Below are positions 3,747 to 60,823 of a stretch of DNA of 64,000 nt, piece after piece. The position numbers were made by a program, and so were the translations under genes. The notes under the pieces were generated by a model. The model saw only the letters and a list, made by a program, of their open reading frames with translations. It had not been told where the DNA came from and searched no databases. The number at the start of each line of letters is the position of its first letter. Position 1 is the first letter of the stretch. The stretch comes from an uncultured Bacteroidales bacterium (GTDB lineage Bacteria; Bacteroidota; Bacteroidia; Bacteroidales; Paludibacteraceae). The stretch lies in the NCBI GenBank assembly GCA_900316845.1, contig ONEG01000004.1, positions 1 through 64,000 on the forward strand, written 5' to 3'.

Positions 3747-4047
3747 CGAGTTTGGATAAATCGACAAATTTCGCTGGCACCGACAGCGTAAAAAAGCGGT
3801 GACATAACAGGCGTTTATTGACGTTGTTTGCGACATCTTGAAATCTTCGCAAAATTTCTTAGAATAAAGTCCGGACAACAACGATGAATGTCCCGTGGAT
3901 ATGTATTAAATAGTGAAGTCCTTGCCCGTGTTATACGGGTGGGCGGGTTGTACATATCGGGCGTGGACTTCGGTTGTTTTTCTACTTTATTCGGGGATTG
4001 CGAAGCCCTCAAGATGCGTGAAGAATGAACGGACTTCACGCTTTTTT
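3747..4047 (+). ncRNA. Structured non-coding RNA, copy 1
   Basis: This is an approximately 300-nt transcript between a strong promoter and an intrinsic terminator, with no coding potential. After a 5' region containing a block almost identical to copy 2 (GTTTATTGACGTTGTTTGCG, 3812-3831), the RNA can fold as a long irregular rod. The pairs are CATCTTGA/TCAAGATG (3834-3841/4009-4016), CTTCGCAA/TTGCGAAG (3845-3852/3998-4005), GAATAAAG/CTTTATTC (3862-3869/3985-3992), AACAAC/GTTGTT (3877-3882/3973-3978), GATATGTA/TACATATC (3898-3905/3951-3958) and an apical CCCGT/ACGGG. Copy 2 at 60538-60823 keeps most of these helices with different bases, which is good evidence for a real structure. I cannot assign a family. 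A 6S-like RNA or a described Bacteroidales motif (for example Bacteroidales-1) are the alternatives to test. Confidence 0.75.
4016..4047 (+). terminator. Terminator of ncRNA copy 1
   Basis: GCGTGAAG (4016-4023) pairs perfectly with CTTCACGC (4034-4041) and is followed by six Ts. Confidence 0.85.
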
Positions 4048-4133
4048 GTGTATATGGCTCATTGGTGCGTATATAGGTGCGTGCATGCGCATGAACCTTA
4101 ATTATATCGTTAATAACGAAAAATGACATAATG

Positions 4134-4216
4134 GTGGCAGGGTGCATAGGTGTGGTATAGTCATATCTTTTGTACCGAATTAAGAAAAATTTCATTTCCC
4201 ACACCTATGCCGCCAC
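4134..4216. repeat. Inverted repeat just upstream of giant secreted-protein gene
   Basis: GCATAGGTGTGG (4144-4155) and CCACACCTATGC (4199-4210) are perfect 12-bp inverse complements, flanked by GTGGC (4134-4138) and GCCAC (4212-4216). The 43-bp interior is AT-rich and contains the promoter-like string TATCTTTTG. It could form a leader hairpin or, less likely given the short spacer, be an invertible segment. Confidence 0.7.
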
Positions 4217-4262
4217 GTGATAAACTTTGATGACAACTAACAATAAAAACAAAAATAAACAA

Positions 4263-4913
4263 ATGAAAACTTTTTCAACTTACTTTAAAACATTTTTAGC
4301 AGCGATGTTATTGCTGGTAGGGAGTAATTATGTAGGAGCAGCTGAACCTAACTGGACTGATTACGCAGTGGTTCCGGAAGTGGGGAAGAACTATTACATC
4401 TACAACAAAACGCGTGGTAGATTTATATGTTTTCAAGGTACTTCTGTTACCAGTTTTGATCCTACTAGAACTTCGATTACTTTAGGTCCAACTACAGGTT
4501 CTTCGGCAACGGAAAGAGGAAATCAAGCGGTGCTGTTTAAGCTTGAAAGCGGTACTACATCAGGGTATTATAAAATTAAGGTTGTTGATCCATTCGGTGG
4601 CAAGACGTGGTACATGAGTTCGTCTATGTATAGTGTATCAACTTCTGCGCAATCCAATATAGCTATAACAGAGGCGGGAACAGCATCAGGTAAAAATATT
4701 ACTACATTTATAAGAAAGGTGATTCCAAGCGTTTATACTTGGGTACCAGCACAACCACAAGCGCAAGCATTTCGTATGGAGCAGCATCAAATTCAGGAAA
4801 AGAATGGTATTTCATTCCGGAAGAGAGTATTAAAGGATGTTCTGTATCGAGTAAAAAGGCAGACGGAACAATATCCATCACTGCACCGACGGACAAGGGG
4901 AAAGCCTCTGTGA
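4263..4913 (+). CDS. N-terminal part of frameshifted giant secreted protein
   Basis: The ATG at 4263 begins a good signal peptide (MKTFSTYFKTFLAAMLLLVG, cleavage near VGAA-E). In-frame upstream starts at 4227 (TTG) and 4230 (ATG) only add a polar N/K-rich stretch. Real homologous-looking sequence in this frame ends near 4696, after which it becomes low quality and stops at 4913. The following frame is open from 4694 and continues the same domain: if the A5 run at 4692-4696 had six As, the reading would run GKKYYYIYKKGDSKRLYLG into the long frame. That segment mirrors an earlier one in this part (GKNYYIYNKTRGRFICFQG), which supports a single original gene. Either an assembly error in a homopolymer or a true inactivating or phase-variable frameshift would explain it. 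Confidence 0.65.
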   Translation: MKTFSTYFKTFLAAMLLLVGSNYVGAAEPNWTDYAVVPEVGKNYYIYNKTRGRFICFQGTSVTSFDPTRTSITLGPTTGSSATERGNQAVLFKLESGTTSGYYKIKVVDPFGGKTWYMSSSMYSVSTSAQSNIAITEAGTASGKNITTFIRKVIPSVYTWVPAQPQAQAFRMEQHQIQEKNGISFRKRVLKDVLYRVKRQTEQYPSLHRRTRGKPL

Positions 4914-7900
4914 CCTTCAATGTGTCGGGAGCAGGAACGGTCTCAAATTTCACTTGGACAAGCAGTAACACGAAGCTTAAAATAGGAATCCCTACCCGTT
5001 CCGGTAACGTGATAACGGTGCCGGTGCATTATACGGCAGAAAATAAGCATGGTCTTCCTATCGAAACGGCTACTATTACGCTGACGTCAAAAGATAATGC
5101 CACGTCAAAGACCGGTACTGCTAAAGCTAATGTGAACCTGCAGCCTACCTTTTCAACAGTGGTGTCCGCTTTGGATTGGAATCGTAATGCGAATTCTGAA
5201 ATAGTGGAGCGTTTCTATGTAGGAATGGATGTGGCGGCATCGGAACGTGACCGTTTGGCGAACAAGCTGCTTGTTTCCAATGCGAACACTATGGCCAAAA
5301 GAACCACTACTACTAAGACGGTTTGGACGGCTACCATTATCGGGGATAATGCGAATCAATTTAAGTTCCCCAATGGAACGCAATCCTATTCCGGCAACTA
5401 TGTTACTGATAATTTCTTAAGCGCCTTTGATGTGCACTATGCGCCAACCGTAGCAGGTGAGCATACGGCTACCTTGCGTATTGTGGCGAGTTATACAGCG
5501 GCTAATGGAGCTCAGACGGATACGCATGACATTACTTTAAGTGGCCGTTGTGAAGCAGGTTCCATCATCACGTTTGCAGCGGATGACTCTCCCAGCGACG
5601 AAGAGATTTATTCCTTTGGCAATATTATCGGAACTAACAAAGTGGATGTAACGGCTAATTTGTTAATCTCACAAGTTACCGATTTGCAAAAGGTATGGAG
5701 TGACCCGGACGGAGTATTTGAGTTTAACCCAAGTTCCGTCAATCTAAGCAAAGTGTCTCAGACGCTTACTTTTAGTGCGCATCGCGAAACTCCGGTGACA
5801 GAAAATACGAATCATGAAGCTACGCTTACTGTCTCAGGAACAAGTACTGTCAATGGAGAACCTGTCTCGGCAACTTTCACTATGAGATATACGGCAGTGC
5901 CGCTGACTCAACCTACGGTTACTTGGAACTGGAGTTCCATCCGCGAGGGTCTTATGGCCTACAATCCGATTACTACCAATTCGGATGGAGAATGGACGCT
6001 GACAAAGACAGCCGGAGATAAGCTTACATACAATCCGGCTACGAAAGAAGCGGAAGCGGAGTATCTGCACCATGAGCCCGGCCAATCGGCTGCGTTTTAT
6101 CTTCAAATTCCGCAGACCGATACGTATGCGGCATTTGAAGCGGAATATGAGACAGTAATTGATGTGTCGTCCGTACCGGAGATTTATCTGGACTTATATT
6201 CCCAATATACGGATCCTTCGGTAATGACATACGAAATCAGCGAGTTCATGGGAGAGCAAATACCCTCAGCATCGTTTGAAGAGACACAAAATAAACTGAC
6301 TATCAATAGCGGCGGTTGGGTAGAATTCATGACTGCCGGGCAAAATGTCATCTCTTTCAGCTATGATGATGATCCGGGTAATTATGGCATACCTAACTGG
6401 ACAGTTACGGAATATTATGGTAACAATACAAGTAAAGTAATTTATCAGAATGTGGTTCTTACATCTGGTCAAAATGTAACCTGGCAATTCTCGCCGAATG
6501 CAGAAAAGATACGCATAGCAGAGACTCAGGGCTTTAATAGTGGTATATTTACCAATGTGCGTATCTCTGAATACGACGTCATTGCAGCGGACGCAGAAAT
6601 CGTTGCGCTGATAGATGATAACGGCACAGTAAGTGATCGAGATGTTACGCTCACGTTTGCCAATAAGCGTCAAGTAACCGCTACGTTGAACGAAACGGCA
6701 GCGCAGTACTTTACGATAGTAGATGCAACCCCCGCTGTTGCTGTTCCGGAGATTAATTTGACTCAGGAGATCTTTGATGCAAAATCTTTAGTGGCATATG
6801 AAAGCGGTTGGTCGGGAAGCGCATCATTTGAAGATGATGTACTGACGATATCGTCTTGGATAGAGTTTATGACTTCCGGGCAAAGCAAAATATCCTTTCA
6901 TTATAAAGATGGAGATTTTTTTGGTACCCCGACTGATCCTATATGGACTGTTACGGAATATGATGCCAACAATACGCCTACTGTAATTTATGAGGATGTG
7001 GATCTAACTTCCGGCACAGATGTAACATGGTCATTCTCCAAGAATGCAACAAAGATTCGTATAGAACAGTCACAAGATGCTTTCGGCGATTTCACAAATG
7101 TACGTATCTATGGAGAAGCAGTCAGCGGTGGCGGCGGAGAACCCGGTTCTTCTGTCGTATATGATAGCGAGGACGGATTAGGTGTTGGTAAAGTCGTGGA
7201 AGGTAAAGTGGTCACGGTAGCATTAAAGGGTGGAGTAACCCTTGCGGATGCTAAAGAGGCTACGGCCGGTAATGCGTGTCAGTTGGTGTTGGAGGATGAT
7301 TATACCTACGATCATGAGGTACTCGTGCTTCCGATTGCGATTGTATCGCCGTGTGACATTACCTATAAGCATTCGGATTACGGTACGTACGTGGTAACCT
7401 ACCAAGGTGAAGATCCACGAACGGTAGGTGTATCATTTGTACAACACATTGGTGAGCCAACTCCCTCGCTCTATGCAGTTACCTTGAGCGCTCCTACTCC
7501 GGCATCCGGTTATCAGTTCCAAGGATGGAAGATTAACGGTGTTACCGTTTCGTGCAAAGAGAGTTTTACCACTTCTATTACAGTGACCTGTGAAGTAGAA
7601 GCAGCCTTTGTGGCGGTAGAAGCACAGAACTTCAAAGTAGGCGAGGTCTATTTTGCGGACATGGGCGCAGCCCTCACTGCCGCAGGTACCTCTTCGGATA
7701 GCAAGATTGTAACGCAGATGCAGGATGTTACGCTGGGTGACGGTACCACTCCGGTTAATTACACCATTCCTGCGGGCGTGACCTTGTTAGTTCCGCACAA
7801 GGCTGACTTCTTTGAGTTGCAAGAGACTCCGGAAGTGGTGAATGCAACAGAAGTGTTGTCTGCTTACCGCACACTGACGCTGAAAGAAGGCGTGACGATT

Positions 7901-10900
7901 ACCTGTAATGGTAACATCTGCATTTCCGGTAAGATGATGTCTGCCGGAGGTGGAAATAAATCTGCTTATACCACCGGCGAGTGCGGTGTGATCAATATGG
8001 CTAACGGAGGACATATCGAACTGAACAATGGTGCCCACCTCTACTGCTGGGGTTACATCAAGGGTCAGGATATGGACCAAGGTAATAATACCGTTGGTAC
8101 AGGAACTGTTACTGCCAATAGTGGAGCCACCGTTTGGGAGAACTTCGAGTTAGGCGACTGGCGAGGCGGTACGGCTTCGTTCAATATCTACTACAATAAC
8201 GAAACCGAACATCGCAAACTGTTCCCGTTCCAAAGTTATGCGCTCCAGAACGTGGAGATCCCGACTTCCTTTATGCATGGTTCGACGCTGCGTACCTTTA
8301 CCAGTATCACTACCAGCTTAGGTCACCACGATGCTGTCTTCTCGATGGTTGGTCCGGAGAATACGATGTTCTTGCTGACAGACGAGCAGTCATTAGTACG
8401 TATGTGGTACGACCCGACGACGGACTTGAGTTGCTATGAATTGAGCGGAACGGCGAAGTTGGATGCTTTGCATGTGACGGTATATGTGGATATGAGTTCG
8501 GAGAACTTCATCCTGCCGATTTCGAATAGCATGCATATCATCTTGAAGGATTGTAACATGAATCTGGCGAATCCGCTGATGGTACAAGCCGGTGCGATTG
8601 TGGAGATCAAGCCGAGTGCTACGGTTAATCTGACAAGCGAGTTGTATCTATACGATGTGGACCAGTGGGGATTATATGTCCATAACTATTACTTCCGCTC
8701 GTTCAATAACCTCACCAGCCATAAGAACCGTGGCGCAGAGAACTCCAAAGCCGGTCTGGATGATGCCAAACTGATTGTGGACGGTATCTTCAATATCCAG
8801 AACGGCGGCAAACTCTATACGACTGCCGGAGGCGCGAATATCATGGGTAATGGCGGCGGACAAATTTCCTTCAAGAGCGCCTTGCCGGCTGATAATATCT
8901 TGTGGGCAGTGACCGTACTATCCGGTGCACCGTATATTGATTGGAAGTACAATGATGTAAAAGCTGCGAACCTCTGCAATGAGGACGGAACTTATACCCG
9001 CTCCATTAGCATGGCAACCTTCTATAATGTCAATGGACGTTGGTTCCATGAGGAAGATAAGGATGCCCAGGACAACCAAACCTATTGGTTTACCTATATG
9101 GATAACGGCAATAGCGGTAAAGATGTGAGCACAGATGCCGTTTATTCGCACGATAAGACCGGTCTGGAAGAGCGCATGAAGTGGTTCAATGTAGTTGAGG
9201 ATGAGAACTGCCTGAACTGGTGGATCGGAACGAATCCTGCTGCGCAGTATAACTATACGATGCTCAACGATTGGCACCAGTTCATGGCAACCGAGACCGA
9301 GAATGTATATAGCGGTTCGAACAATACCCTTTATCAGAAAGACGGTTGCGCATGGACGGAAACAGGTGTGGTAGATGAGAATTGTCTCTATACCTTTGAG
9401 GAAAACGGCAATGAGGTGAAGAAAGCCCTTGTGAACGGCAGTTTCATTCCGCTTACCAGCAACGGCTATGACCCCGCTTATCATCAGACGGATGATGCAA
9501 GCAAATACTTTATCTGCTTCTCCGGATGTAACTGGCATCCGGCTACGCCTTATACCAATGAGTCGAAGGCTTATACGATCCATCCTGAAGATGAAGATAT
9601 GCATTACATCTGGTTCAACAACGACTGGATGAACGTGCTGCGCGACGAACCATTCTTCTACACCGAAGACGAGCAGACCAACGTACGCACGTACTACGAG
9701 TATGTTAATGGCGATTGGGTAGTAGCTACTCCGTACGTCAGCGTCACCGATGAAGCAGAAACCCGTACGTTCTACATGATCAAGGAGGCGTTCAACGTAG
9801 CTTCTATCAAGAAAGACGCTACTATCACCCTCCTGCGCGACCTGCCGAACGTGTCGGAGGTATTGACCTATTCGACACAGAACACGACCTGTACGCTCGA
9901 TCTGAATGGGCATGTACTGGGCGGAAATGTGGCGAACTTAGTTACCGTCAATGCCCCGGGATGTACGTTCACGATTACCGACAATGCAGCATTGAAGATT
10001 GGTAAGATTAGCAACAGTGCAAACAAAGCCGTTTATGCGCAGAAGGGTACGGTGGTACTGAATAACGGTACGCTCGAAGCGATCGGCGCTAACGCAATCG
10101 CCTGTGCTTCAGCAGGTGCTATCACCATCAACGGCGGTTATCTCTCTGCGGCTACGAGATGCGTCAATGTAGCAGGTTCTGCTTGTACGATCAACGGTGG
10201 TCATTTCACCGACAATACCGGTCTCGCAACCTATTGCGCAGCGCATAAGTATCCGTTTGAGACCGCTGACCCGAAATATAAGTATGAAGTGTCTGCTGCA
10301 TGGACTATTACCTTTGTGAATGAAGCAACCACACTCCAGACGCTTCATCTGCAACCCGGTGAGACGCCTCAATATACAGCGGCACAACCGACGAAAGACG
10401 GTTATAAATTCACCGGCTGGTCGCCTGCGATTGTTGCCGCTACAGCAGACGCTACTTACACCGCACAGTTTACAGCGAAAGCAGCCGAAGAGCGTTGCGT
10501 CACGCTAAACTCCAACGGAGGTAACGAAGGCTTGCAGTATGTATATGTTACTACCGGTAGTGCAATTGGTACCTTGCCGGAGGGAACCACCAAGGACGGT
10601 CATACCTTCGCAGGTTGGTTCACCGCTGCAAACGGAGGCTCGCAGATCACTACTGTCACTACCGTTTCGGCGGATGTAACGTGGTACGCGCATTATAATA
10701 AGAATACGTACACGCTCACGTGGGATGCGAATGGCGGCGAGTTGTCCGGTAGTTACACCAGTGGTTCGGTACAATTCGGTACTGCCATCACCGCTCCGAC
10801 GGCAACCAAGGCCGGTCATACCTTCCTCTGCTGGAATGCTACTCCGGCAACGACGATGCCGGCGCAAGACGTAACGTACACCGCACAATGGTCTGTTGCT

Positions 10901-12643
10901 GCAAAGCACTATCTGCAGAACCTCGATGGTTCGTATCCTGCCGCTCCGGCAGCAACCGACGACGTAACCGGTGAGGCGGGTGCGTATGTCACTCCGGCAG
11001 TGAAGACCTATAGCGGTTTTATCACTCCGGCAACGCAGACCGTTCGTATTGGTGAGACAGACGAGGTAAGATACGAATACGCTCGTCGTACGTACACGAT
11101 CACGCTGAACGCTAACGGCGGTACATGCGCAACAACTTCGCTGAACGTAAAACACGGTGCAACGATCGCATTGCCGAACGCAACACGTACCGGCTTTGCC
11201 TTTGTCGGTTGGTTCACGAAGGCTGTCGGTGGCGACCAGATAACTGCATCGACGATTATCCAACGTAACATCGGTACGCTCTATGCGCACTGGTCGGAAG
11301 ATGGTAATAGTGTGGTTGCCAAGAATGGTGAAGTAATCACTATTAATGCGGCATATGTCGAAGCGCACGGTAACGAGATCATCAATCTCGTCATTGAGAA
11401 TGGCGGTGAAGTGGACGTAACAGAGGCTATCAACGTAACCAATCTGTATCTGGAGTCCAACGGTAGTACCACCTCCGGTCAGTTACTTAGTGGAGCTAAC
11501 GTAACGGCAACCAACGCATACTTCGACTTGACTCTCAATGCTGTTAACCATAAGTGGTACGGAGTAGCTGTTCCATGGCAGGTAAATGCAGCCAACGGTA
11601 TTTCTGTCAACGGTCGTACGCTGACCTTAGGTAAAGATTTTGATATCATCTACTACGATGGCGCACGTCGTGCGGCAGAAGGCAAGCAGAAGTGCTGGAA
11701 GTACGTGGAGAACGACGGTGACAAGACCTTACAACCAGGCCGCTTGTACATGATCGGTCTGATGCTGGATGCTCCGTCAATCCGCTTTACGAAGAAATTC
11801 GGTGCTGCTCTCCTGACAACCAATACTTCCGTCACAGCGCACAGTGGTGCAGCGGCTTCTACAGACCATGGATGGAACGGTGTTGCCAACCCTGCGCTCT
11901 TCCATGCATTTGTCAATCCGGGCGTAGAGGAAGGACAGGTGTATCTGCCGGATGAGAGCCGGTATGAGACTACACCGCTGAATACAACGAAATTCGTGGT
12001 GGGCGAAGGAGCTTTCGTACAAGCTCCGGCGAACAAAGCGATCACGGTATCTGCTAATGGTTCCTTTGCTGCTCCGCGTCGCGCAAATGCAAATGCTACG
12101 AATAAATTTGATGTCCGTATTGCTCCGGTTGAGGCTGCTTATACCGACCGTCTCTTCGTTAAAGCGACGGACAGCAAAGAGACAGACGAGTATATCATAG
12201 GTCAAGACCTCGTGAAGATGGCAGTCAGCAGCAAAGTGGCGCAACTTTGGGTGGACCGCTACGGAGAGCAGTTATGCGTCAATACGCAAGAGCTGACCAA
12301 CCAGACTGCATACTATCCCTTAGGTATCCGTGTTCCCAAGGCCGGAGAATATACGATTAGCCAAGAGTCGATGGCGGAGACAGGTAACTATACGCTCTAC
12401 CTGACCTACAACGGCGAAGTGATCTGGAACCTCACGAACGGTGCTTATACCGCTTCACTGCCCCAAGGAGACGTAATGGGCTATGGTCTGCGTGTCATCG
12501 CAAAGACGCCTTCTGTAGCTACCGGCGTGGATGAGGCGCTCATAGACGCGCAAGGGAACACCCAGAAAGTTCTCATTGACAACAAGGTATATATTATCCG
12601 CGGAAATAATGTCTATAGTGCGGATGGCCAATTAGTTAAATAA
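4739..12643 (+). CDS. Giant secreted multidomain protein (main part after frameshift)
   Basis: The frame is open from 4694; the TTG at 4739 is only the first nominal start, and this part has no signal peptide of its own, so it needs the upstream fragment for export. Two tandem modules of about 115 residues (about 6225-6580 and 6740-7120) share WVEFMT-type/WIEFMT, WTVTEY and FTNVRI motifs. Near the C-terminus are four Listeria-Bacteroides/InlB-B-like repeats (about 10300-10490, 10497-10697, 10708-10895 and 11092-11310), with patterns such as LNANGG, GHTFAGWFT and YTAQW. A MucBP-like segment lies at about 10895-11090. The last residues (QKVLIDNKVYIIRGNN then SADGQLVK) are the C-terminal signature shared with three other proteins here. 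The combined product would be about 2,800 residues and is inferred to be a cell-surface adhesin exported by T9SS. The ligand is unknown. Confidence 0.75.
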   Translation: MGTSTTTSASISYGAASNSGKEWYFIPEESIKGCSVSSKKADGTISITAPTDKGKASVTFNVSGAGTVSNFTWTSSNTKLKIGIPTRSGNVITVPVHYTAENKHGLPIETATITLTSKDNATSKTGTAKANVNLQPTFSTVVSALDWNRNANSEIVERFYVGMDVAASERDRLANKLLVSNANTMAKRTTTTKTVWTATIIGDNANQFKFPNGTQSYSGNYVTDNFLSAFDVHYAPTVAGEHTATLRIVASYTAANGAQTDTHDITLSGRCEAGSIITFAADDSPSDEEIYSFGNIIGTNKVDVTANLLISQVTDLQKVWSDPDGVFEFNPSSVNLSKVSQTLTFSAHRETPVTENTNHEATLTVSGTSTVNGEPVSATFTMRYTAVPLTQPTVTWNWSSIREGLMAYNPITTNSDGEWTLTKTAGDKLTYNPATKEAEAEYLHHEPGQSAAFYLQIPQTDTYAAFEAEYETVIDVSSVPEIYLDLYSQYTDPSVMTYEISEFMGEQIPSASFEETQNKLTINSGGWVEFMTAGQNVISFSYDDDPGNYGIPNWTVTEYYGNNTSKVIYQNVVLTSGQNVTWQFSPNAEKIRIAETQGFNSGIFTNVRISEYDVIAADAEIVALIDDNGTVSDRDVTLTFANKRQVTATLNETAAQYFTIVDATPAVAVPEINLTQEIFDAKSLVAYESGWSGSASFEDDVLTISSWIEFMTSGQSKISFHYKDGDFFGTPTDPIWTVTEYDANNTPTVIYEDVDLTSGTDVTWSFSKNATKIRIEQSQDAFGDFTNVRIYGEAVSGGGGEPGSSVVYDSEDGLGVGKVVEGKVVTVALKGGVTLADAKEATAGNACQLVLEDDYTYDHEVLVLPIAIVSPCDITYKHSDYGTYVVTYQGEDPRTVGVSFVQHIGEPTPSLYAVTLSAPTPASGYQFQGWKINGVTVSCKESFTTSITVTCEVEAAFVAVEAQNFKVGEVYFADMGAALTAAGTSSDSKIVTQMQDVTLGDGTTPVNYTIPAGVTLLVPHKADFFELQETPEVVNATEVLSAYRTLTLKEGVTITCNGNICISGKMMSAGGGNKSAYTTGECGVINMANGGHIELNNGAHLYCWGYIKGQDMDQGNNTVGTGTVTANSGATVWENFELGDWRGGTASFNIYYNNETEHRKLFPFQSYALQNVEIPTSFMHGSTLRTFTSITTSLGHHDAVFSMVGPENTMFLLTDEQSLVRMWYDPTTDLSCYELSGTAKLDALHVTVYVDMSSENFILPISNSMHIILKDCNMNLANPLMVQAGAIVEIKPSATVNLTSELYLYDVDQWGLYVHNYYFRSFNNLTSHKNRGAENSKAGLDDAKLIVDGIFNIQNGGKLYTTAGGANIMGNGGGQISFKSALPADNILWAVTVLSGAPYIDWKYNDVKAANLCNEDGTYTRSISMATFYNVNGRWFHEEDKDAQDNQTYWFTYMDNGNSGKDVSTDAVYSHDKTGLEERMKWFNVVEDENCLNWWIGTNPAAQYNYTMLNDWHQFMATETENVYSGSNNTLYQKDGCAWTETGVVDENCLYTFEENGNEVKKALVNGSFIPLTSNGYDPAYHQTDDASKYFICFSGCNWHPATPYTNESKAYTIHPEDEDMHYIWFNNDWMNVLRDEPFFYTEDEQTNVRTYYEYVNGDWVVATPYVSVTDEAETRTFYMIKEAFNVASIKKDATITLLRDLPNVSEVLTYSTQNTTCTLDLNGHVLGGNVANLVTVNAPGCTFTITDNAALKIGKISNSANKAVYAQKGTVVLNNGTLEAIGANAIACASAGAITINGGYLSAATRCVNVAGSACTINGGHFTDNTGLATYCAAHKYPFETADPKYKYEVSAAWTITFVNEATTLQTLHLQPGETPQYTAAQPTKDGYKFTGWSPAIVAATADATYTAQFTAKAAEERCVTLNSNGGNEGLQYVYVTTGSAIGTLPEGTTKDGHTFAGWFTAANGGSQITTVTTVSADVTWYAHYNKNTYTLTWDANGGELSGSYTSGSVQFGTAITAPTATKAGHTFLCWNATPATTMPAQDVTYTAQWSVAAKHYLQNLDGSYPAAPAATDDVTGEAGAYVTPAVKTYSGFITPATQTVRIGETDEVRYEYARRTYTITLNANGGTCATTSLNVKHGATIALPNATRTGFAFVGWFTKAVGGDQITASTIIQRNIGTLYAHWSEDGNSVVAKNGEVITINAAYVEAHGNEIINLVIENGGEVDVTEAINVTNLYLESNGSTTSGQLLSGANVTATNAYFDLTLNAVNHKWYGVAVPWQVNAANGISVNGRTLTLGKDFDIIYYDGARRAAEGKQKCWKYVENDGDKTLQPGRLYMIGLMLDAPSIRFTKKFGAALLTTNTSVTAHSGAAASTDHGWNGVANPALFHAFVNPGVEEGQVYLPDESRYETTPLNTTKFVVGEGAFVQAPANKAITVSANGSFAAPRRANANATNKFDVRIAPVEAAYTDRLFVKATDSKETDEYIIGQDLVKMAVSSKVAQLWVDRYGEQLCVNTQELTNQTAYYPLGIRVPKAGEYTISQESMAETGNYTLYLTYNGEVIWNLTNGAYTASLPQGDVMGYGLRVIAKTPSVATGVDEALIDAQGNTQKVLIDNKVYIIRGNNVYSADGQLVK

Positions 12644-12659
12644 ATGTCAAATTAGCATT

Positions 12660-12788
12660 ATGGAAAAGAGATTATATATCATGCCTCAAATCGAGGTGGC
12701 AGCAATCAAGGGATGCAGCCAGATTATGACAACCAGCATTGGATTGCCACCTGACATGGCTCCCCAGCGTAGAACGGATGTGTTCTGA
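12660..12788 (+). CDS. 42-residue peptide, translationally coupled to next gene
   Basis: ATG at 12660 to TGA at 12788 encodes MEKRLYIMPQIEVAAIKGCS and then 22 more residues ending RRTDVF. The TGA overlaps the next gene's ATG by one base (TGATG), which suggests translational coupling. The pattern M-x-K-x-Y/L-Y-x-x-P-x-I-E-V near the N-terminus resembles a class of very short Bacteroidales open frames of the type MKKxYxxPxIExV, seen in many genomes without a known function. It has no signal peptide or membrane segment. It starts 16 bp after the giant protein's stop codon and is probably in the same transcript. Function unknown; a regulatory leader peptide or a small signalling peptide are both possible. 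Confidence 0.6.
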   Translation: MEKRLYIMPQIEVAAIKGCSQIMTTSIGLPPDMAPQRRTDVF

Positions 12789-14614: not shown

Positions 14615-14637
14615 TCTCCAAAAAATTCCGATTTTCC

Positions 14638-14668
14638 TTGCATATATCGCAAAAAAGCAGTACCTTTG
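14638..14668 (+). promoter_or_regulatory. Promoter of dtd
   Basis: TTG 14638-14640, a 20-bp spacer and TACCTTTG 14661-14668, 19 bp before the dtd ATG. The upstream 24 bp are identical to the ncRNA copy 1 promoter. Confidence 0.8.
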
Positions 14669-14687
14669 CACGCAAAACAAGATAATT

Positions 14688-15140
14688 ATGCGAGTAGTTG
14701 TACAACGATGCAGCCGGGCGGAAGTGCGCATAGAAGGCGCAACGGTCGGGAAGATTGAGAAGGGCTTTATGCTGCTGGTCGGCGTGACGGACACGGACAC
14801 GCAGGCGGAAGCTGATGTGTTAGCGAAGAAGATCGCGCAGCTGCGTGTGTTCGAGGACGAGCAAGGGAAGATGAACCTCGCCATCCGCGATATAGGCGGC
14901 GCAATCCTCAGCATATCGCAGTTCACGCTCTATGCCGATTGCCGCAAAGGTAACCGTCCGTCGTTCATCAACGCCGCCCGCCCGGAGAAGGCTTCGCCGC
15001 TGTATGACTATTTCAACGACCGCCTCCGAACCGAGTACGGCCTCCAGGTCGAAACCGGCCGCTTCGGCGCCGACATGAAGGTGGACTTCATCAACGACGG
15101 TCCCGTCACCATCCTTCTCGACACGGATGAATTGAAATAA
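14688..15140 (+). CDS. dtd: D-aminoacyl-tRNA deacylase (DTD)
   Basis: DTD hydrolyses D-amino acids mischarged on tRNA (for example D-Tyr-tRNA) and also clears Gly-tRNA-Ala, protecting translation in the cytoplasm. The 150-residue length is normal for the family. It starts [13 protein letters not shown], and the two signature motifs are intact: SQFTLYAD (about residues 77-84, active site) and NDGPVTI near the end (the Gly-cis-Pro motif region). It stands alone with its own promoter and a terminator at 15157 that overlaps the next promoter. Nothing is odd about it. Confidence 0.95.
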
Positions 15141-15156
15141 AAAATCGCAAAAAGTG

Positions 15157-42500: not shown

Positions 42501-45500
42501 CTCGTCAGCAACCTGACAGGTATATCCGATTGGAAGACGTATGAGATAGACCTCTCTGCTTATTCCGGCAGTAAGGTGATTATCTATTTCGCGGCTACCA
42601 GCAACTGTGGTTACGGCGATGCATACCTCTATCTGGACGATGTGGCTGTAGCAGCGGCTCCGGATTGTCTCAAACCTTCCGGTTTGGCTATTTCGGGAAT
42701 TACAGCTACCTCTGCTACCCTCGTCTGGAACTCCGAGACCGATGGTTTACCATGGGTATATGCGTATGCTCCGGCTTCTGAACCGGAACCGGCTGATGAC
42801 GCATTCAGCGATATCAATGTCAACTCCATTGAGTTGGATGGACTGGAGGATTGCACGAGCTATAAGTTCTATCTGCGTAAGAATTGTGGCGCAGAAGCCA
42901 AGAGCGAAAGTGTTGCTATCTCCTTCCAGACCAAGCAAGTTCCTGTGGCCGCAGGTGATTCCTATTCCGAGGACTTCGAGGGCGAGGCAAAATGGTTACT
43001 CAACAATGGCGACCTCGCTAATGCATGGGTAATCGGTACGGCTGTTTCCAACGGTGAAGGATCGCACGCGCTCTATATCTCTAATGACGGTGGTGCAACG
43101 CACGCCTATACGAACAGCGCTGCTTGTGTTGTATTTGCGCAAAAGGCATTTAACTTCGCTGCCGGCAACTACGTATTCTCCTATGACTGGTTGTGTAATG
43201 GTGAAGGATCTTCTACCCTTTACGACTACCTGCGTGTAGCACTCGTACCGGCTGACGTTGAGTTGGTACCGGGTACGGCGCTGCCGACGGGTGTTAGTGC
43301 AACAGCCCTGCCTGCCGGATGCATCGCTTTGGATGGAGGTATGGCTATGAACCTCAGTACCTCTTGGGCTACCTTCACTTCGGATGAAGTTGCGGTTCCT
43401 GCGGGTACATACAATATCGTGATCATGTGGAGAGACGATACCTCCGGTGGTACTAATCCTCCGGCTGCTATCGATAACTTCAGCTTCGCGAAGATCGCTT
43501 GCGCTATGCCGGCTGACTTCCATGCGGTAGATTCCTTGGCTACTACGACTTCTGTAGTACTCAAATGGACGCAGATGAGTGACGAGGACGACTTCGTTAT
43601 TCGCTACAAAGTATATGGTGCAGAAGCTTTCGCTGATTCTGTCTTTGTACTCAATGACGATTCGACTACGCTGACTGGACTCGTTCCGGGTACGGCTTAT
43701 GAGCTGCAAGTAGCTGCGTGGTGCAATCCTGCTGACGAAACGGCTATCGGTAAATATTCTGCATCAATCTATGCGAACACCAAGTGTGCTGCCGTTGCTT
43801 CGATTAATCAGAATTTCGACGGTATAACGGAAATTCCTTCAAATGCAAATATATTACCTGTTTGCTGGAGTTTCATTAATACCAATACCAGCAGTTCGCA
43901 TAATTATTATCCGACGATACTGGAAAGTGAAACATTTGCGCATTCAGGCAGCAATTCGTTGTATTTCCACTCGTCTGCATACGCTTCCTCTAACGGACCG
44001 GAGAATCAATACGCTGTTTTGCCGGAAATGACAAGCGTAAGCGACAAGCGGATCAAATTCTATGCGAGACCTTTTTCTTCAGGTTCTAACGATCCATGTT
44101 TCGCTGTAGGTGTTATGACGGATCCTGCTGATACTTCTACCTTCGTGCCGGTATATACCCAGTGTGGATATCTTGCTGAGTATGCTCCGTTCGTCATTCC
44201 GTTGGATAGTTACACCGGAGAAGGCAAGTTTATTGCGATCAAACTGGATGTTGCTGCTCAGGGAGGAGACTATACCCATGGTCTCTATATTGACGATGTA
44301 GTCGTAGAGGATATCCCGGCATGTGTAGATCCGAAAGGCCTCCATGCTATCGCAGATGAAATCACTTCCTCTTCTGCTCTCCTCGCTTGGACGCCGCAAG
44401 GCTCCGAGGCGGATTGGCTCGTTCGTTACCGCATCAGCGGTGCTGCCGACTGGGCAGATACGATTCATGTGAACAACGACACCTTGTTACTCGAGAACCT
44501 CGCCGGTGCAACCATCTACGAGGCACAAGTAGCAGCTTGGTGTGATCCGGCAGACGATGAGGCATTGAGTCCGTTCAGCTCATCTATCTCCTTCACTACC
44601 GCGTGTGGTATCATCTCTACTTTCCCGTGGCACGTGGACTTCGAGAGCTTCGCGGCTTCGACTGTACCGACTTGCTGGGATAACTCCGCTTCCACCTCTT
44701 CGACTCTCACAAGCTATCCGGAGCGTATCTGGGGTGTATATGAGTACGGTGGTAATAAGATGATCCGTATGTACAACTACTATGTAAATGACGGTCAGGC
44801 GGTTATCAATACGCCGGCTATCGCTCTGCCGGCAGAGGCGTATGAGTTGAGCTTCGACTATGCGCACACTGCTTCTTGCGGCGCAATGGTAGTTCGTATC
44901 TCCACGGATGACGGTGCTAACTGGACCGCTCTCGAACCGAGCTATGCGAAGACTTCGTCGGGTACGAGTTATGATAACCCGGGTACATTCCAGGAGGCGG
45001 TTGTGAACTTGGCTGCTTATGCCGGTCAGACCATTCTCATCCAGTTCTACTCGGTAGCCAACTATGGTTCCGGTGCTATCTTCGTAGATAACATCGATAT
45101 CCATAAAGCACCGTCCTGTATCAAACCGCAAGGTCTCGAGGCTATCCTCACGAAGGGTGACGGATCGGTGGCTACGCTGAGTTGGTCTGCAGGTGCTTCG
45201 GAAGAAGCTTGGGTGGTTGAGTACAGCCGTAATGCAGATATGTCTGAGGCTATCTCGCTGCCGGCAAACGACACAGCGCTTGCTATCTCCGGCTTGCTCT
45301 CTGACTCGATCTATTACGCTCGCGTGAAAGCAGTCTGTGATGTGACGGATCAGAGTGATTGGAGCGCACAGATCTCCTTCATTCCGACTAACGCTATCAT
45401 CATCAATGATAGTACTGCAACGAGTTCGTATGTGCCGTTCTACGGCTATTATGCAGACCACTCTGCGAACTCGCAGTTCATCGTTCCGGCTGCTGAAATA

Positions 45501-48500
45501 GAGGCACTCATGTGGGATTCGATTACCAAACTGACATTCTACTCCACTTCTTCTTATCCGAATGCAAGCTGGGGATCTGCTCAGTGGGAGGTTTATATCG
45601 CGCCGACTAATGCATCCAGCCTCTCTGCCCTGAATGATTGGAGCAAGATGAGCCTGGCTAAATCGGCCGGTACACTCTCTGTGGTAAATAGCCAGATGGT
45701 GGTTACTTTGGATCATCCGTTCGTGTATGAAGGTGGCAATCTCGTGATTGGCTTCAAGCAGGTAACTGCCGGTTCCGGTTCTTCTTGTACCTGGTACGGT
45801 AAGACGGGCGCTTCCGGTAGTTCCTACTATAGCTATACTTCTTCTTACTCGACGAGCAGTAATACTTCTACCTTCCGTCCGAAAGTACGTTTCGACTATG
45901 TCGAGGGACCTGAGCCTACTTGCTACAAGGTGAAAGATCTCGTAGTAACCGGTATTACCGCTTCTTCCGCTACTATCGGCTGGACCAATGGTTCGGAGGA
46001 TCAAGAGGCATGGCAGATTGCTTACTCGTGCGATCCGAACTTCGATATCGCTGAGGCTACGCCGGTTGGCATCGCTTCGAACCCGTGCGCGTTGGCTGAG
46101 CTCTTGACAGACACCTTATATAACGTGTACGTACGTGCGAACTGCGGTGAAGGCGGTTATAGCGCATGGAATAGCATCTCCTTCCGTACGGCAAAAGCTT
46201 GCCAGGCACCGGACGATATTGTTGCTGCTCCTGGTTTGAATACTGCTGAAATCAGCTGGAATACCTACGGACAGACCGGATTCAACCTCCGCTATAAAGC
46301 GGCAGCTGACGCTGACTGGACGATCCTGAACGATGCTGCTTCGCCACAACTCATTGAGGGACTTGCATCGAGCACCTCGTATCAGGTTCAGGTACAGGCT
46401 GCTTGCGAGAGCGAGGATAGCTGGTCCGCTGCTATCAGCTTCAAGACCGCTTACGGCACCCCGTTCGAGGAGAAGTTCGCAACAACTTCTATCCCTGATG
46501 ATTGGGCGCGTTATAGCGGCCTGCTCGAAGATGTATTGGATGGTGAGGCGTTGACTACTACTACCTCCGGCTGGAACTTCGGTACCGCTAATGGCGTATT
46601 TAATAACCATGCGAAGATTAATATCTATGGTACTTCCTATAAGTACTGGTTGGCTACACCTGCTGTTTATGTATCGGATAATGTACAGCTGACCTTCGAC
46701 TTGGCTTTGACCAAGTTCTCGGGTACGCTGACTCCTGTTGAGGCAGACGCTCAGGCAGACGATAAGTTCGCAGTCCTGATCTCTACCGATAATGGTGCTA
46801 ACTGGTCTGTTCTCCGTCTCTGGGATAACGCAGGTTCTGAGTATGTTTATAACAATATCGCTTGCTCTGCAACGGGTGAGCCGATCGCTATCGACCTCAG
46901 CGCTTACAACGGCCAGGCAATCAAGATTGCGTTCTACGGTGAATCGACAGTAAGCGGCAATGGTGATAACAACCTCCATATCGACAATGTCCTCATCGAC
47001 AAGGTTCCGACTTGCTTGAAACCGACCGGCTTGAACATCAGTGATGTGAAAGCGCACTCCGCTCAACTCAGCTGGACCGCTGGTGACGAAGGTCAGTCAG
47101 CATGGCAGATTGCTATCGATACAATCGCTGCATTCAATCCGGACACCCTCTCTAACCTCATTAATGTTACTGAGAATCCGTACGTCCTGACCGGTCTTGA
47201 TCCTGAGACACGTTATTATGCATACGTTCGTGCGAACTGTGGTGCCACGGATGGCGTAAGCCGCTGGACCGACGTTCAGACCTTCAAGACGACGATCGCT
47301 TGTCCTGCTCCTTCCGCTCTCAAGGCTGTCCTCACCCCGGGTGACGGTAGTGTTGCTACCCTCAGCTGGAGCGCAGGCGCAGACGAGGCTGCTTGGATCG
47401 TTGAGTACTCGCTCAACTCGAACCTCTCTGACTCGATCGAGGTGCTGGCTAACGATACCTTCGTGAACCTGAGCGGTCTGACCGCTGAGGCTACCTACTA
47501 CGCTCGCGTGAAAGCAGACTGCGGTGAGCTGGACGGTGAGAGCCTCTATAGCGCTGTCATCTCCTTCAAACCGACTGACGCATACGAGCTCCTTCTCAAC
47601 GACGGTACGGCTACCAATGAGTATGTTCCTATCTACGGATACTGGACGGATAACTACACACGCAGTCAGTTCATCATTCCGGCTGAGCAACTCGAGTCGC
47701 TCGAATGGGATTCGCTTACAGTGCTGACCTTCTACTCCAGCTCCACTAATACGAACTGGGATGCTACCGCCTTTGAGGTGTATGTTGCCGAGGTGCCGGA
47801 AACAACAATGACGGCACTGACCGATTGGAACGCAATGACCAAGGTTATGAATGAAGCTTCGCTCAATATTATAGACAACCAAATGGTAATTACATTTGAC
47901 GAAGCATATCAATACCAAGGCGGCAACCTCTTGATTGGTATCAAGCAGACTGCTTCAACAGCCAGTACGAATGCAAAACACACCTACTGGTATGGTGTAT
48001 CTGCTAACGGTGCTTCATTCGGTGGTTATGGCGATGGCAACAACGTGGCTCAGCGTAACTTCCTGCCGAAGATGTTGATCAACTACGTTCCGGGTGTGGC
48101 TCCGGCTTGTCCGAACCCGAAGAACCTGGCTGTATCGGGCATCACCGATAGCGAGGCTACCTTCTCGTGGACGGCTGTGGAAGGCGCTAATTATGAGTAT
48201 GCACTCGTTGAGGGCGCTGTAGAACCGACCGAGTTCTTAGCTGCGGCTGAGAATCCGCTTGTGCTCAGCAACCTTGCAGAGGCTACCGACTATACCTTCT
48301 ATCTCCGTCGTGCTTGCGGCGTGGACGGCTATAGCGAAGTAATCTCTATTGCCTTCACCACGGAGATCCATGTAGAGGCTGTTCCGTTCGATGAGGACTT
48401 CGAGGCAGACGGCTCTTGGAAGTTCGTCAACGGCTCCGAGCCGAACGCATGGGTAATCGGTAATGCGGCTAATAACGGCGGAGAGAAAGCACTCTACATC

Positions 48501-49040
48501 TCCAACAACGGTGCTAACAATACCTACACCAAGGATGCTGAGTCCTATACCTACGCTACGATCCTGTTGAACTTCTCCGAGGCAGGCGAATATACCTTCG
48601 CTTATGATTGGAAGGCTTACGGTGATTATAACGTGGAGGAAGGCGAGTTGTACGACTACCTGCGCGTAGTACTCGTTCCTGCTTCCGCTACGCTCGAAGC
48701 TGGTAATCCGGCTCTGCCTGAGGGCTATATCGCTCTCGACAACGGCGGACTCTATGGCGCTACCGATTGGCAGCACTATAGCTCCGACGCAGAGGTGGCA
48801 GCAGGCCAGTACAAACTGGTATTCGCATGGTTCAACGATGAGTCCGACGGAGAAGACGCTCCGGCTGCTATCGATAACATCAGCATCCAGGAGAAGGGTC
48901 CGGAGACCGGTCTCGAAGGCAACGCCGGTATCTTCAATAACGGCGAGGCGTTCAAGTTCCTCCGCGACAATAAAGTCTTCATCCTTGTCAACGGTGTCAT
49001 CTACGATGCTACCGGACGCAAGGTCGAAGTAGTAAAATAA
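39558..49040 (+). CDS. Giant modular surface adhesin, 3,160 residues
   Basis: The signal peptide is MRTFTQKLAFLLMTLLWCVA, extended and cut near VKA-Q. An N-terminal module of about 200 residues recurs twice more (about 45400-45900 and 47580-48100): a YVPFYGYY/YVPIYGYW-type start, then SQFI(V/I)PA and FRPKVRF-type ends. Between these are fibronectin-III-like domains (patterns such as YYARVKA(V/D)C) and lectin-like adhesin units (GESTV..GN..NNLHIDN). The C-terminus (AFKFLRDNKVFILVNG ... ATGRKVEVVK) is the shared 24-residue signature, so T9SS export is inferred. Its organisation parallels the 29285 gene, suggesting an old tandem duplication with later module shuffling. A strong terminator follows. 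Confidence 0.85.
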   Translation: MRTFTQKLAFLLMTLLWCVAMPQVVKAQTCVEIGDGTSSNNQLPICGYYHSSYTQQLYLAEELGISAGNITSIAFKYTDASSTKRMISIFMANTDAASLSSAYVTDAEFTEVLSQSVVEFDNSNDWFVIDLETPFAYDGSSNLLVTVYMSYSSAEETHYDSDSRFAYTSATGMARYTTNDYTSSATELTVVDGVLTANSNSYTGINGTSSSNRCNMQFCYTTGSSGPTCDKPASCDITDITANSATVNFAGGSGTYNVEYKGANDADWTSVIKNTILTSIPLTDLMPNTSYQVRVQSVCGDNTSGYKSASFQTLIGLPFAENFNGSSAPDGWSVRSGKLNDDGSATLSSGYGWSYTTGNGVFDKHARAEIYSTSCYKWLILPEIPIPSMEEGDLGYQLTFNVALTAYSGTLQPATKGAQSDDRFIVLASLDGGANWNILQEWNNTGSAYVYDDIACTADGDEIAIDISTYAGQSIILAFYGESTSGPSSGAGDNYLHIDNVLVDRIPTCLKPTGLHDVQGAATTNSIQVAWTANSGEIAWHVQYKPSDNSEADWITFDAYTNPSYTINGLQPFTNYDVRVAAVCTETDVTDYCKPIKAKTATGVPYEEKFDTIALPGEWKRYKVLKEQLDESAPMVSTVDGWDVGAANGVFPAANNHLLLNIAGADCNYWILSPTIVMEDGYQLTFDLALTQAAGSSPVAVAPGEQNDDMFIVFISNDGGENWTELRKWGVGGYSYDDINPEGQLVTFDLSSYANQSILIALYGESTVANGNNNLHIANFKIAEIPACQQANSLVITDLEATSATAVWTSDDVEANWQYGLVADPAADFAPADEDFANNTAALSAELTGLSEKTNYAFFLRRVCEGSNSEPLVKNFRTPAMPLALPWSENFDTLTSGIPEGWDNSEGTTSTDSYKWNKYTDSDNTCLRFNSYNNSTDKTNILATPRIYLSEDAILSFRWKNPKGGAGEVLISNDNGATRTALVSNLTGISDWKTYEIDLSAYSGSKVIIYFAATSNCGYGDAYLYLDDVAVAAAPDCLKPSGLAISGITATSATLVWNSETDGLPWVYAYAPASEPEPADDAFSDINVNSIELDGLEDCTSYKFYLRKNCGAEAKSESVAISFQTKQVPVAAGDSYSEDFEGEAKWLLNNGDLANAWVIGTAVSNGEGSHALYISNDGGATHAYTNSAACVVFAQKAFNFAAGNYVFSYDWLCNGEGSSTLYDYLRVALVPADVELVPGTALPTGVSATALPAGCIALDGGMAMNLSTSWATFTSDEVAVPAGTYNIVIMWRDDTSGGTNPPAAIDNFSFAKIACAMPADFHAVDSLATTTSVVLKWTQMSDEDDFVIRYKVYGAEAFADSVFVLNDDSTTLTGLVPGTAYELQVAAWCNPADETAIGKYSASIYANTKCAAVASINQNFDGITEIPSNANILPVCWSFINTNTSSSHNYYPTILESETFAHSGSNSLYFHSSAYASSNGPENQYAVLPEMTSVSDKRIKFYARPFSSGSNDPCFAVGVMTDPADTSTFVPVYTQCGYLAEYAPFVIPLDSYTGEGKFIAIKLDVAAQGGDYTHGLYIDDVVVEDIPACVDPKGLHAIADEITSSSALLAWTPQGSEADWLVRYRISGAADWADTIHVNNDTLLLENLAGATIYEAQVAAWCDPADDEALSPFSSSISFTTACGIISTFPWHVDFESFAASTVPTCWDNSASTSSTLTSYPERIWGVYEYGGNKMIRMYNYYVNDGQAVINTPAIALPAEAYELSFDYAHTASCGAMVVRISTDDGANWTALEPSYAKTSSGTSYDNPGTFQEAVVNLAAYAGQTILIQFYSVANYGSGAIFVDNIDIHKAPSCIKPQGLEAILTKGDGSVATLSWSAGASEEAWVVEYSRNADMSEAISLPANDTALAISGLLSDSIYYARVKAVCDVTDQSDWSAQISFIPTNAIIINDSTATSSYVPFYGYYADHSANSQFIVPAAEIEALMWDSITKLTFYSTSSYPNASWGSAQWEVYIAPTNASSLSALNDWSKMSLAKSAGTLSVVNSQMVVTLDHPFVYEGGNLVIGFKQVTAGSGSSCTWYGKTGASGSSYYSYTSSYSTSSNTSTFRPKVRFDYVEGPEPTCYKVKDLVVTGITASSATIGWTNGSEDQEAWQIAYSCDPNFDIAEATPVGIASNPCALAELLTDTLYNVYVRANCGEGGYSAWNSISFRTAKACQAPDDIVAAPGLNTAEISWNTYGQTGFNLRYKAAADADWTILNDAASPQLIEGLASSTSYQVQVQAACESEDSWSAAISFKTAYGTPFEEKFATTSIPDDWARYSGLLEDVLDGEALTTTTSGWNFGTANGVFNNHAKINIYGTSYKYWLATPAVYVSDNVQLTFDLALTKFSGTLTPVEADAQADDKFAVLISTDNGANWSVLRLWDNAGSEYVYNNIACSATGEPIAIDLSAYNGQAIKIAFYGESTVSGNGDNNLHIDNVLIDKVPTCLKPTGLNISDVKAHSAQLSWTAGDEGQSAWQIAIDTIAAFNPDTLSNLINVTENPYVLTGLDPETRYYAYVRANCGATDGVSRWTDVQTFKTTIACPAPSALKAVLTPGDGSVATLSWSAGADEAAWIVEYSLNSNLSDSIEVLANDTFVNLSGLTAEATYYARVKADCGELDGESLYSAVISFKPTDAYELLLNDGTATNEYVPIYGYWTDNYTRSQFIIPAEQLESLEWDSLTVLTFYSSSTNTNWDATAFEVYVAEVPETTMTALTDWNAMTKVMNEASLNIIDNQMVITFDEAYQYQGGNLLIGIKQTASTASTNAKHTYWYGVSANGASFGGYGDGNNVAQRNFLPKMLINYVPGVAPACPNPKNLAVSGITDSEATFSWTAVEGANYEYALVEGAVEPTEFLAAAENPLVLSNLAEATDYTFYLRRACGVDGYSEVISIAFTTEIHVEAVPFDEDFEADGSWKFVNGSEPNAWVIGNAANNGGEKALYISNNGANNTYTKDAESYTYATILLNFSEAGEYTFAYDWKAYGDYNVEEGELYDYLRVVLVPASATLEAGNPALPEGYIALDNGGLYGATDWQHYSSDAEVAAGQYKLVFAWFNDESDGEDAPAAIDNISIQEKGPETGLEGNAGIFNNGEAFKFLRDNKVFILVNGVIYDATGRKVEVVK

Positions 49041-50220: not shown

Positions 50221-50223
50221 TCG

Positions 50224-52443: not shown

Positions 52444-52497
52444 ATAACCCAATGACCAAATAAATGGTACATGGTAAATGACCAAATGGTAAATATT

Positions 52498-55761: not shown

Positions 55762-55780
55762 TATAGAAACTCACATACTT

Positions 55781-60379: not shown

Positions 60380-60383
60380 GCTG

Positions 60384-60414
60384 CAAAATTACAACAAAAT
60401 CTTCATATACACAA
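60384..60414 (-). promoter_or_regulatory. Promoter of DUF4421-like gene
   Basis: Minus strand: TTGTGTATATG (TTG at 60412-60414), a 20-bp spacer and TAATTTTG (60384-60391), then four bases before the GTG. Confidence 0.75.
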
Positions 60415-60502
60415 ATCTTGCTGCGTTTTTTTTCTCGGGAGGTGTACAAATTGACAAAAATTGTGTAAATTAGCCCATAAAGGCGGAAATTTCAAAATAT
60501 AA

Positions 60503-60534
60503 TTTGCATATTCCAAATAAATGTTGTAATTTTG
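60503..60534 (+). promoter_or_regulatory. Promoter of ncRNA copy 2
   Basis: TTTG 60503-60506 (TTGCATATTCC), a 20-bp spacer and TAATTTTG 60527-60534. Confidence 0.8.
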
Positions 60535-60537
60535 CAC

Positions 60538-60823
60538 TCAATCCACGCCGAAGGGAAGTGTCTCTATTTTTGGGGTGGAGATATTGACATATTAAAAGAC
60601 GTTTATTAACGTTGTTTGCGGCTCTCAAAAACTTCGCAACTTTTTGTCATCAGGCCGAACAATAGAAATGAATGTCCGTAGTTTATGTATTCCCGTGAGG
60701 GTGCGCACTTGCGCACCCCTACGTGTACATATCTTCGGCGTGGATTTCGATTGCACTTACCCTGATGACGGGCATGCGAAGGCCCTTGGGAGCGTGAGGA
60801 CAAACGAACTTCACGCTTTTTTT
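60538..60823 (+). ncRNA. Structured non-coding RNA, copy 2
   Basis: This is the second member of the family at 3747-4047, again between a promoter and a terminator and without coding potential. Near-identical block: GTTTATTAACGTTGTTTGCG (60601-60620). The equivalent helices are GCTCTCAA/TTGGGAGC (60621-60628/60786-60793), CTTCGCA/TGCGAAG (60632-60638/60775-60781), GTCATCAGG/CCTGATGAC (60646-60654/60761-60769), CAAT/ATTG with GAAAT/ATTTC (60660-60669/60744-60753), ATGTA/TACAT and an apical GGGTGCGC/GCGCACCC. Several helices use different base pairs from copy 1, notably the third and the apical hairpin, which supports selection for structure. The same family alternatives as for copy 1 apply. 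Confidence 0.75.
60792..60823 (+). terminator. Terminator of ncRNA copy 2
   Basis: GCGTGAGG (60792-60799) pairs with CTTCACGC (60809-60816) with one G-U pair, followed by seven Ts. Confidence 0.85.

Follow-up and report, generated by a model that had tools for sequence, protein, structure and literature searches.

A multicopy RNA family of Bacteroidales that fits a double pseudoknot ending in a T-run and may act as a transcription attenuator ahead of accessory genes

Two stretches of contig ONEG01000004.1, from an uncultured Bacteroidales bacterium of the Paludibacteraceae, raise the question of what RNA they encode and what that RNA does to the genes behind it. A sequence-only reading of the window (the 64,000 nucleotides that were analyzed, positions 1 to 64,000 of the contig) had placed a structured RNA at 3747-4047 and again at 60538-60823, each time between a strong promoter and an intrinsic terminator, and both stretches were present as described. 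A MAFFT alignment of 20 genus copies served to build a covariance model, R1, which matched the plus strand at 3799-4045 (copy 1; 230.1 bits) and at 60587-60820 (copy 2; 178.8 bits), and these model cores belong to one structured-RNA family of about 250 nt. The sequence-only reading had also suggested a 6S-like RNA or a known Bacteroidales motif, but a search of both copies with the Rfam 15 models at E ≤ 10 gave chance-level hits only. Across the whole window, the one Rfam match at gathering level was a tRNA, and in 18 loci of relatives scanned at E ≤ 1 the RNA was overlapped only by a single sub-threshold plant miRNA model. Among the papers listed by searches of the open-licence PMC literature, none was recognized as describing the double-pseudoknot leader RNA set out below. 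We conclude that the RNA belongs to a family matched by no Rfam family.

The earlier description of a two-copy RNA was correct about both copies and set the number too low. Seven R1 matches at E ≤ 1e-6 were found in the window's own genome, and together with a further copy (L055) at C28:117144-117386 they bring the genome to at least eight copies. R1 matches at E ≤ 0.01 were found in 142 of 151 genomes drawn from the genus, in 84 of 150 genomes and 22 of 33 genera drawn from the family, and in 32 of 295 genomes and 23 of 183 genera drawn from the order, with the own genome counted each time and with some genomes from narrower ranks included in the family and order draws. Scoring was limited to 14, 14, and 7 candidates in each genome of the genus, family, and order draws, respectively, so copy counts from these draws are lower bounds; a fuller search of four genomes gave 18 copies in G017, 5 in G184, 1 in G577, and 8 in G521. 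Named species genomes scanned for an exact pattern gave at least 119 stretches, and among the 80 matches listed, 79 were titled Paludibacteraceae or Bacteroidales, many of them from ruminants, and one was a Rhodanobacter record (L106). The Rhodanobacter record was rejected as a carrier since it had no covariance-model match, and its pattern match was taken as chance. A plasmid or phage origin was likewise unsupported, as BLASTN with copy 1 found no match among plasmid and phage records and an exact search for the 3′ motif found none in viral contigs.

For the analyses of structure and context, 47 of 134 model-match rows were left out: 43 lay on the opposite strand and are taken to reflect the quasi-palindromic structure, 3 were cut by a locus edge, and 1 repeated copy 2. 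Two opposite-strand rows of 106 were also omitted, as was a second L104 row in the window-pair scan and strand tests. The sample contains near-duplicate copies (L087/L126 and L090/L103), and the majority of its copies were chosen via the 3′ motif.

Both copies were predicted to fold more stably than dinucleotide shuffles, at -105.2 kcal/mol versus -79.6 for copy 1 (z -5.5; 0 of 100 shuffles as stable) and -107.4 kcal/mol versus -75.6 for copy 2 (z -6.8; 0 of 200). Compensatory changes proposed for two helices were borne out in relatives. Helix A (CATCTTGA/TCAAGATG) and helix B (GAATAAAG/CTTTATTC) gave the strongest covarying pairs in the 82 copies that remained after a 95% identity filter, and the position pair 3837-4013 within helix A occurred there as C-G in 28 copies, A-T in 27, G-C in 12, T-A in 11, T-G in 2, and A-G in 1. 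When each copy's own two strands were compared with strands swapped between copies, helices A and B gave z scores of -20.8 and -18.1, respectively, in 46 copies. In 46 copies under 80% identity, z scores were -10.6 for a by-eye pairing that forms part of a longer helix, P1, and -4.5 and -7.9 for the stems of two small hairpins spotted by eye, hp1 and hp2; two control pairings gave +0.5 and +0.9. These comparisons bear out the sequence-only reading that the RNAs form a genuine structured family, in which compensatory changes occur and the 5′ region is conserved.

The same comparison was extended to a scan of 1038 window pairs, taken from 45 copies, in which the energy of a copy's own two pieces was set against that of pieces swapped between copies. 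The scan recovered helices A and B, a kissing helix K, helix D, and a local 3′ hairpin. Moreover, it returned four pieces absent from R1, two of which were contiguous and joined strands m and c5 (P1), while the other two joined strands c3 and t (P3). In 45 copies under 80% identity, P1 averaged about 18 pairs and -19.1 kcal/mol (z -10.5) and P3 about 22 pairs and -26.0 kcal/mol (z -10.7), each with 0 of 200 permutations as extreme. The swap test carries no model of relatedness, and the wrong strand pairings m:t, m:c3, and c5:t serve as its control, with z scores of -1.8, +1.4, and +0.4 in 45 copies. P3 was weak in 2 of the 45 copies (-7.1 kcal/mol in L126:201-418 and -3.2 in L090:3415-3649), both of which kept the local hairpin. 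P1 and P3 are rich in G-U pairs. The loops of hp1 and hp2 also covaried as complementary kissing sequences, CTTCGCAA/TTGCGAAG in copy 1 and CCGGAAA/TTTCCGG or CCGCCAA/TTGGCGG elsewhere, and the kissing sequence shifted as one unit between subfamilies.

A structure of 74 designed pairs was then read against the 20-copy MAFFT alignment, which predates any model. The pairs formed in 93.7% of cells, compared with 86.9% in shuffles (0 of 500 as high) and at most 45.7% for versions slid along the alignment; the structure was drawn on copy 1, itself a row of the alignment, which gives it an advantage over the slid versions. Together, hp1, hp2, and the local 5′ and 3′ hairpins formed in 97.9% of cells. 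Alignments fitted with R1 (A2 and A4) favor A, B, K, D, the local hairpins, and part of a rod, since these lie within the model; P1, P3, hp1, and hp2 lie outside it. The covarying strands fit a predicted double pseudoknot that ends in a T-run. In this topology P1 and P3 would form two long hairpins, the loop of the one (A5-hp1-B5) would pair with the loop of the other (B3-hp2-A3), and the loops of hp1 and hp2 would kiss inside.

On copy 1, the strands follow one another on the plus strand as P1 5′ (m, 3810-3830), helix A 5′ (3834-3841), hp1 (3841-3857; stem 3841-3844/3854-3857, kissing loop K5 at 3845-3852), helix B 5′ (3862-3869), P1 3′ (c5, 3872-3892), helix D with a variable apical hairpin (3898-3958), P3 5′ (c3, 3959-3982), helix B 3′ (3985-3992), hp2 (3994-4008; GGG/CCC stem, kissing loop K3 at 3998-4005), helix A 3′ (4009-4016), and a 3′ end region (4016-4047) that holds the P3 3′ strand (4020-4043), an alternative local terminator hairpin (4016-4023/4034-4041), and the T-run (4042-4047). 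Assignments for P1 and P3 5′ come from the window-pair scan, swap test, and alignment; those for helices A and B from covariation with the swap test or the alignment; those for D, hp1, hp2, and the kissing loops from the swap test and alignment; and that for the local hairpin from the alignment. Copy 2 contains P1 at 60598-60619 and 60654-60677 (m:c5, -17.0 kcal/mol, 18 bp), helix A at 60621-60628 with its partner at 60786-60793, helix B at 60646-60654 with its partner at 60761-60769, and P3 with its 5′ strand at 60737-60758 (c3:t, -25.1 kcal/mol, 20 bp) and its 3′ strand, terminator hairpin, and T-run, assigned by sequence and duplex energy, at 60792-60823.

The sequence-only reading had proposed a long rod, and the 20-copy genus alignment did not support the rod as the main fold. 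The 17 rod pairs formed in 81.7% of cells versus 81.5% in shuffled alignments, 227 of 500 of which scored as high, and the rod strands paired better with the 5′ and 3′ ends. The rod pairing c5:c3 reached z -6.5 in a diverse set and nothing beyond shuffles in the genus set, and an alternative rod state may exist beside the P1/P3 fold. The minimum-energy nested fold of both copies includes the rod, and nested-subset energies were -45.2 for P1+D+P3 and -41.4 for A+K+B+D with the local hairpins. Nearest-neighbor energies leave the choice undecided, since the rod is part of the minimum found by nested programs and such programs cannot score pseudoknots. The local 5′ hairpin cannot form together with P1, nor can the local terminator hairpin or the rod form together with P3. 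Since the local 5′ and 3′ hairpins are themselves conserved, two exchangeable states are plausible, and a strand-exchange switch between them is a plausible reading of the alignments. Some divergent copies (L194, L196, L195, L055, L071, and L214) combine a strong P3 with a weak local 3′ hairpin of -4 to -8 kcal/mol. Because the local hairpin and P3 each set a helix beside the T-run, both states may terminate. Among these mutually exclusive states, none clearly leaves the T-run free of a helix, and no alternative pairing that plainly does so was found; thus, a classical antiterminator may be missing.

Ahead of each RNA lies a promoter-like motif of the Bacteroidetes type, and a generic scanner reported no Escherichia coli-type promoter in front of either. 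The Bacteroidetes promoter consensus is TTTG or TTG, a spacing of 17-22 bases, and TANNTTTG. Regular-expression matches to this consensus lie at 3713-3743 ahead of copy 1 and at 60503-60534 ahead of copy 2, and the same expression found none between either RNA and its next gene. On the plus strand, the E. coli-type matches of the scanner fell within copy 1, at 3838-3865, and in the spacers, at 4134-4161 and 61238-61266, with totals at chance level. Judged by the same motif alone, 55 of 101 copies have a strict promoter within 200 nt in front, as do 20 of 40 control genes taken from divergent pairs. RNA-to-gene spacers contain one in only 5 of 97 cases (Fisher 6e-9 versus the controls), compared with a mean of 29.2 of 97, and a range of 14 to 42, in length-matched control draws. 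By motif, the layout fits that of a cis-regulatory leader: promoter, RNA, and codirectional gene, with no promoter between.

The claimed intrinsic terminators stood as a 3′ hairpin and T-run at the end of each RNA (T6 and T7), but the generic scanner reported none in either region; its loop limit is 8 bases, and the loops here are 10 and 9. At least five T's in eight positions were found at the 3′ end of 103 of 104 copies. By sequence, the last helix covaries and a T-run adjoins it, and termination is predicted.

The next gene, defined as an open reading frame of at least 80 aa or one cut by the edge, was codirectional with the RNA in 94 of 100 copies and opposed in 6; four more of the 104 copies had no gene before the edge. 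For comparison, the gene in front of promoter-bearing copies was codirectional in 33 of 47 cases (Fisher 2e-4). Protein families were scanned in 92 of the 94 codirectional downstream frames, two repeats being dropped, and in 33 of 34 upstream frames, L074 being omitted, with up to 330 aa of each. BspA-type LRR matches occurred in 17 of the 92 genes behind the RNA and most other families once, and by a simple hydropathy rule an export-like N terminus was found in 50 of the 92, versus 85 of 273 background frames. Behind copy 1, the first frame (4230-4913) had no Pfam match and, by eye, a secreted-looking N terminus. Behind copy 2, the first sizeable frame (61295-62077) encodes a HARE-HTH domain and begins after a gap of 474 nt. 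Where a strict promoter in front is lacking (54 copies), the RNA follows a codirectional gene in 40 cases, 22 of them within 108 nt. Matches among the 33 front proteins, one protein possibly matching several families, were to KilA-N (7), PIN_3 (3), and YoeB, zeta, ParE, and DUF2442 (2 each), recurring families of a kind often linked to toxin-antitoxin systems. Ordinary front proteins were found as well: GcpE, UbiA, and a DEAD-box helicase, once each.

Several features were noted around the copies. Copy 1 is preceded by a leader at 3768-3798 in which an H-type pseudoknot is predicted from the sequence (CGCTG..CAGCG and CACCG..CGGTG), and this leader is partly common to others, with similarity mostly beginning between about 3771 and 3809. 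Short leaders resembling H-type pseudoknots (CGCTGGCACCGACAGCGTAAAAAAGCGGTG and variants), or a 5′ hairpin motif, precede both the RNA and RhuM/KilA-N-like genes, and such leaders (3768-3798; L051, L052, L053, and L136) recur between small accessory genes. A second strong hairpin was seen by eye at 4138-4216, between copy 1 and the start codon, and its version in G103 differs in sequence and retains self-complementarity. Short repeats around GTCGGATGCCATCCGAC lie at 60930-61230, between copy 2 and the next gene, and recur in relatives. The window also holds three very long open reading frames, at 4739-12643 (2634 aa), 29285-39262 (3325 aa), and 39558-49040 (3160 aa).

Loci orthologous to those of the two copies were compared. 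In G103, the counterpart of the gene behind copy 1 (window 4274-8203) shares 91% identity with it and stands behind a promoter and an RNA from a different subfamily (103.9 bits, with no BLASTN match to copy 1). In G128, the ortholog has a promoter and no RNA, the best model match (10.5 bits) being taken as chance, and L138 has both the RNA and the gene. Thus, an RNA precedes this gene in three of the four loci looked at (G000, G103, and L138, and not G128). In G151, promoter and RNA are retained at 87% identity, but the gene that follows is another one and has a promoter of its own. Copy 2 itself occurs in G151, G139, and G022 and is absent from the matching site of G107, which has other open reading frames instead. 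The copy 2 stretch shares 90-92% identity between G000 and G022, compared with 84-85% for two long upstream pieces and 93% for one 101-nt piece. Similarity of copy 1 to other loci mostly ends at the edges of the unit (about 3771-4056), beyond which the flanks differ; exceptions are L138, with the downstream gene in common, and a few short pieces. Two loci, G022:C36 (L043) and G011:C21 (L025), hold only the first 60 nt or so of the RNA followed by unrelated sequence, as if the rest had been replaced, and in L043 that sequence is, by eye, a DUF1016-like gene.

Many copies have a promoter-like motif on one side and an accessory gene's start codon on the other, and the presence of promoters in front, their scarcity behind, and the codirectional genes favor a cis-acting leader with a default terminator. 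We lean toward the explanation that each copy is a cis-acting transcription attenuator of the surface or other accessory gene behind it. Transcription would begin at the upstream promoter and the RNA would fold during synthesis, until the last-made strand closed the helix next to the T-run and polymerase stopped by default. Altered folding or docking, caused by a ligand, a protein, or ribosome traffic, would let polymerase read through, and the toxin-antitoxin-type genes in front of some copies could be the source of such traffic. Against an attenuator, the genes behind the RNA are mixed, 6 of 100 are opposed, the gap behind copy 2 is long, the scanner reported no terminator, and the gene that follows the RNA in G151 would be served by its own promoter. 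A more ambitious version, which we advance tentatively and consider less likely than not, is a bistable, topologically locked switch in which one global signal, a second messenger or dedicated protein, would set the strand exchange in every copy, so that surface proteins and toxin-antitoxin-linked operons would be switched jointly as an order-wide regulon.

The self-contained unit of promoter, RNA, and T-run and the many copies with a conserved core would also suit a small RNA that stands alone and works in trans, on mRNA targets or by holding a protein, with the gene behind it incidental. We consider this unlikely, as an independent gene would not be expected to have a codirectional neighbor in 94 of 100 cases and a spacer promoter in 5 of 97. 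The copies that lack a strict promoter, 40 of 54 of which follow a codirectional gene, also speak against it. The edges at which copy 1 similarity stops raise another alternative, that RNA and leader form a dispersed recombination or cassette element, a landing or exchange site for toxin-antitoxin and surface genes, with only a secondary part for transcription control. Leader pieces ahead of RhuM, KilA-N, and DUF1016-like genes fit such an element, as do the RNA without the gene in G151, the gene without a similar RNA in G103, and the G107 site without copy 2; an attC/integron-like reading of the leader repeats is kept within this rival only. However, between G000 and G022 copy 2 shows higher identity than the two long upstream pieces, and this conservation, with the common G-U pairs of P1 and P3, points to a role at the RNA level; we regard the exchange element as distinctly unlikely.

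A role at the RNA level could also be protective, with a locked knot keeping nucleases from the 5′ ends of mRNAs made by readthrough. A loop-loop contact enclosed by very long helices, placed behind promoters and in front of genes, would serve that end, but the T-run found in nearly every copy would be unneeded, and we regard the idea as highly improbable. Scarcely credible is descent from a known family, for example 6S RNA or Bacteroidales-1, from which the RNA would have diverged: length and the rod-like minimum-energy folds speak for it, and the Rfam searches (copies at E ≤ 10, 18 loci at E ≤ 1) and the unsupported rod in the genus alignment speak against it. On the Rfam searches, identity with 6S, Bacteroidales-1, or Bacteroides-1 was rejected.

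If the attenuator reading is correct, Bacteroidales, a major order of the gut, use a multicopy leader RNA, unusual in its well-supported fold, before surface proteins and toxin-antitoxin-linked operons, and there would be a testable handle on how variable genes are controlled in the order. RNA structural biology would gain a natural case of two long hairpins whose loops pair in three segments.

Among known systems, Bacteroidales-1 (RF01693) and Bacteroides-1 (RF01694) are given as candidate structured RNAs in PMC2864571. They resemble the present family in taxon, but neither matched either copy at E ≤ 10. DUF805b RNA (RF02914), filed as cis-regulatory in Rfam, is a 35-nt element separate from the leader RNA. 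It was observed directly behind the RNA in two of five own-genome matches (C28:117415-117449 and C4:13050-13084) and in 2 of the 18 loci scanned (L081 4485-4519 and L122 1042-1076), and DUF805b-like pieces, recognized by eye and below the Rfam cut-off in the loci scanned, lie behind other copies. 6S RNA is a long rod with a central bubble. The 6S/6S-flavo RNA (RF01685) is alike in its usual length range and in the rod-like minimum-energy fold, but it gave no model match, and covariation favors two pseudoknotted helices over a rod. Riboswitches of the c-di-GMP type occur in multiple copies ahead of surface genes. Likewise, the leader RNA occurs in several copies per genome in the leaders of surface and accessory genes, but it has no Rfam match, and its fold is different and larger.
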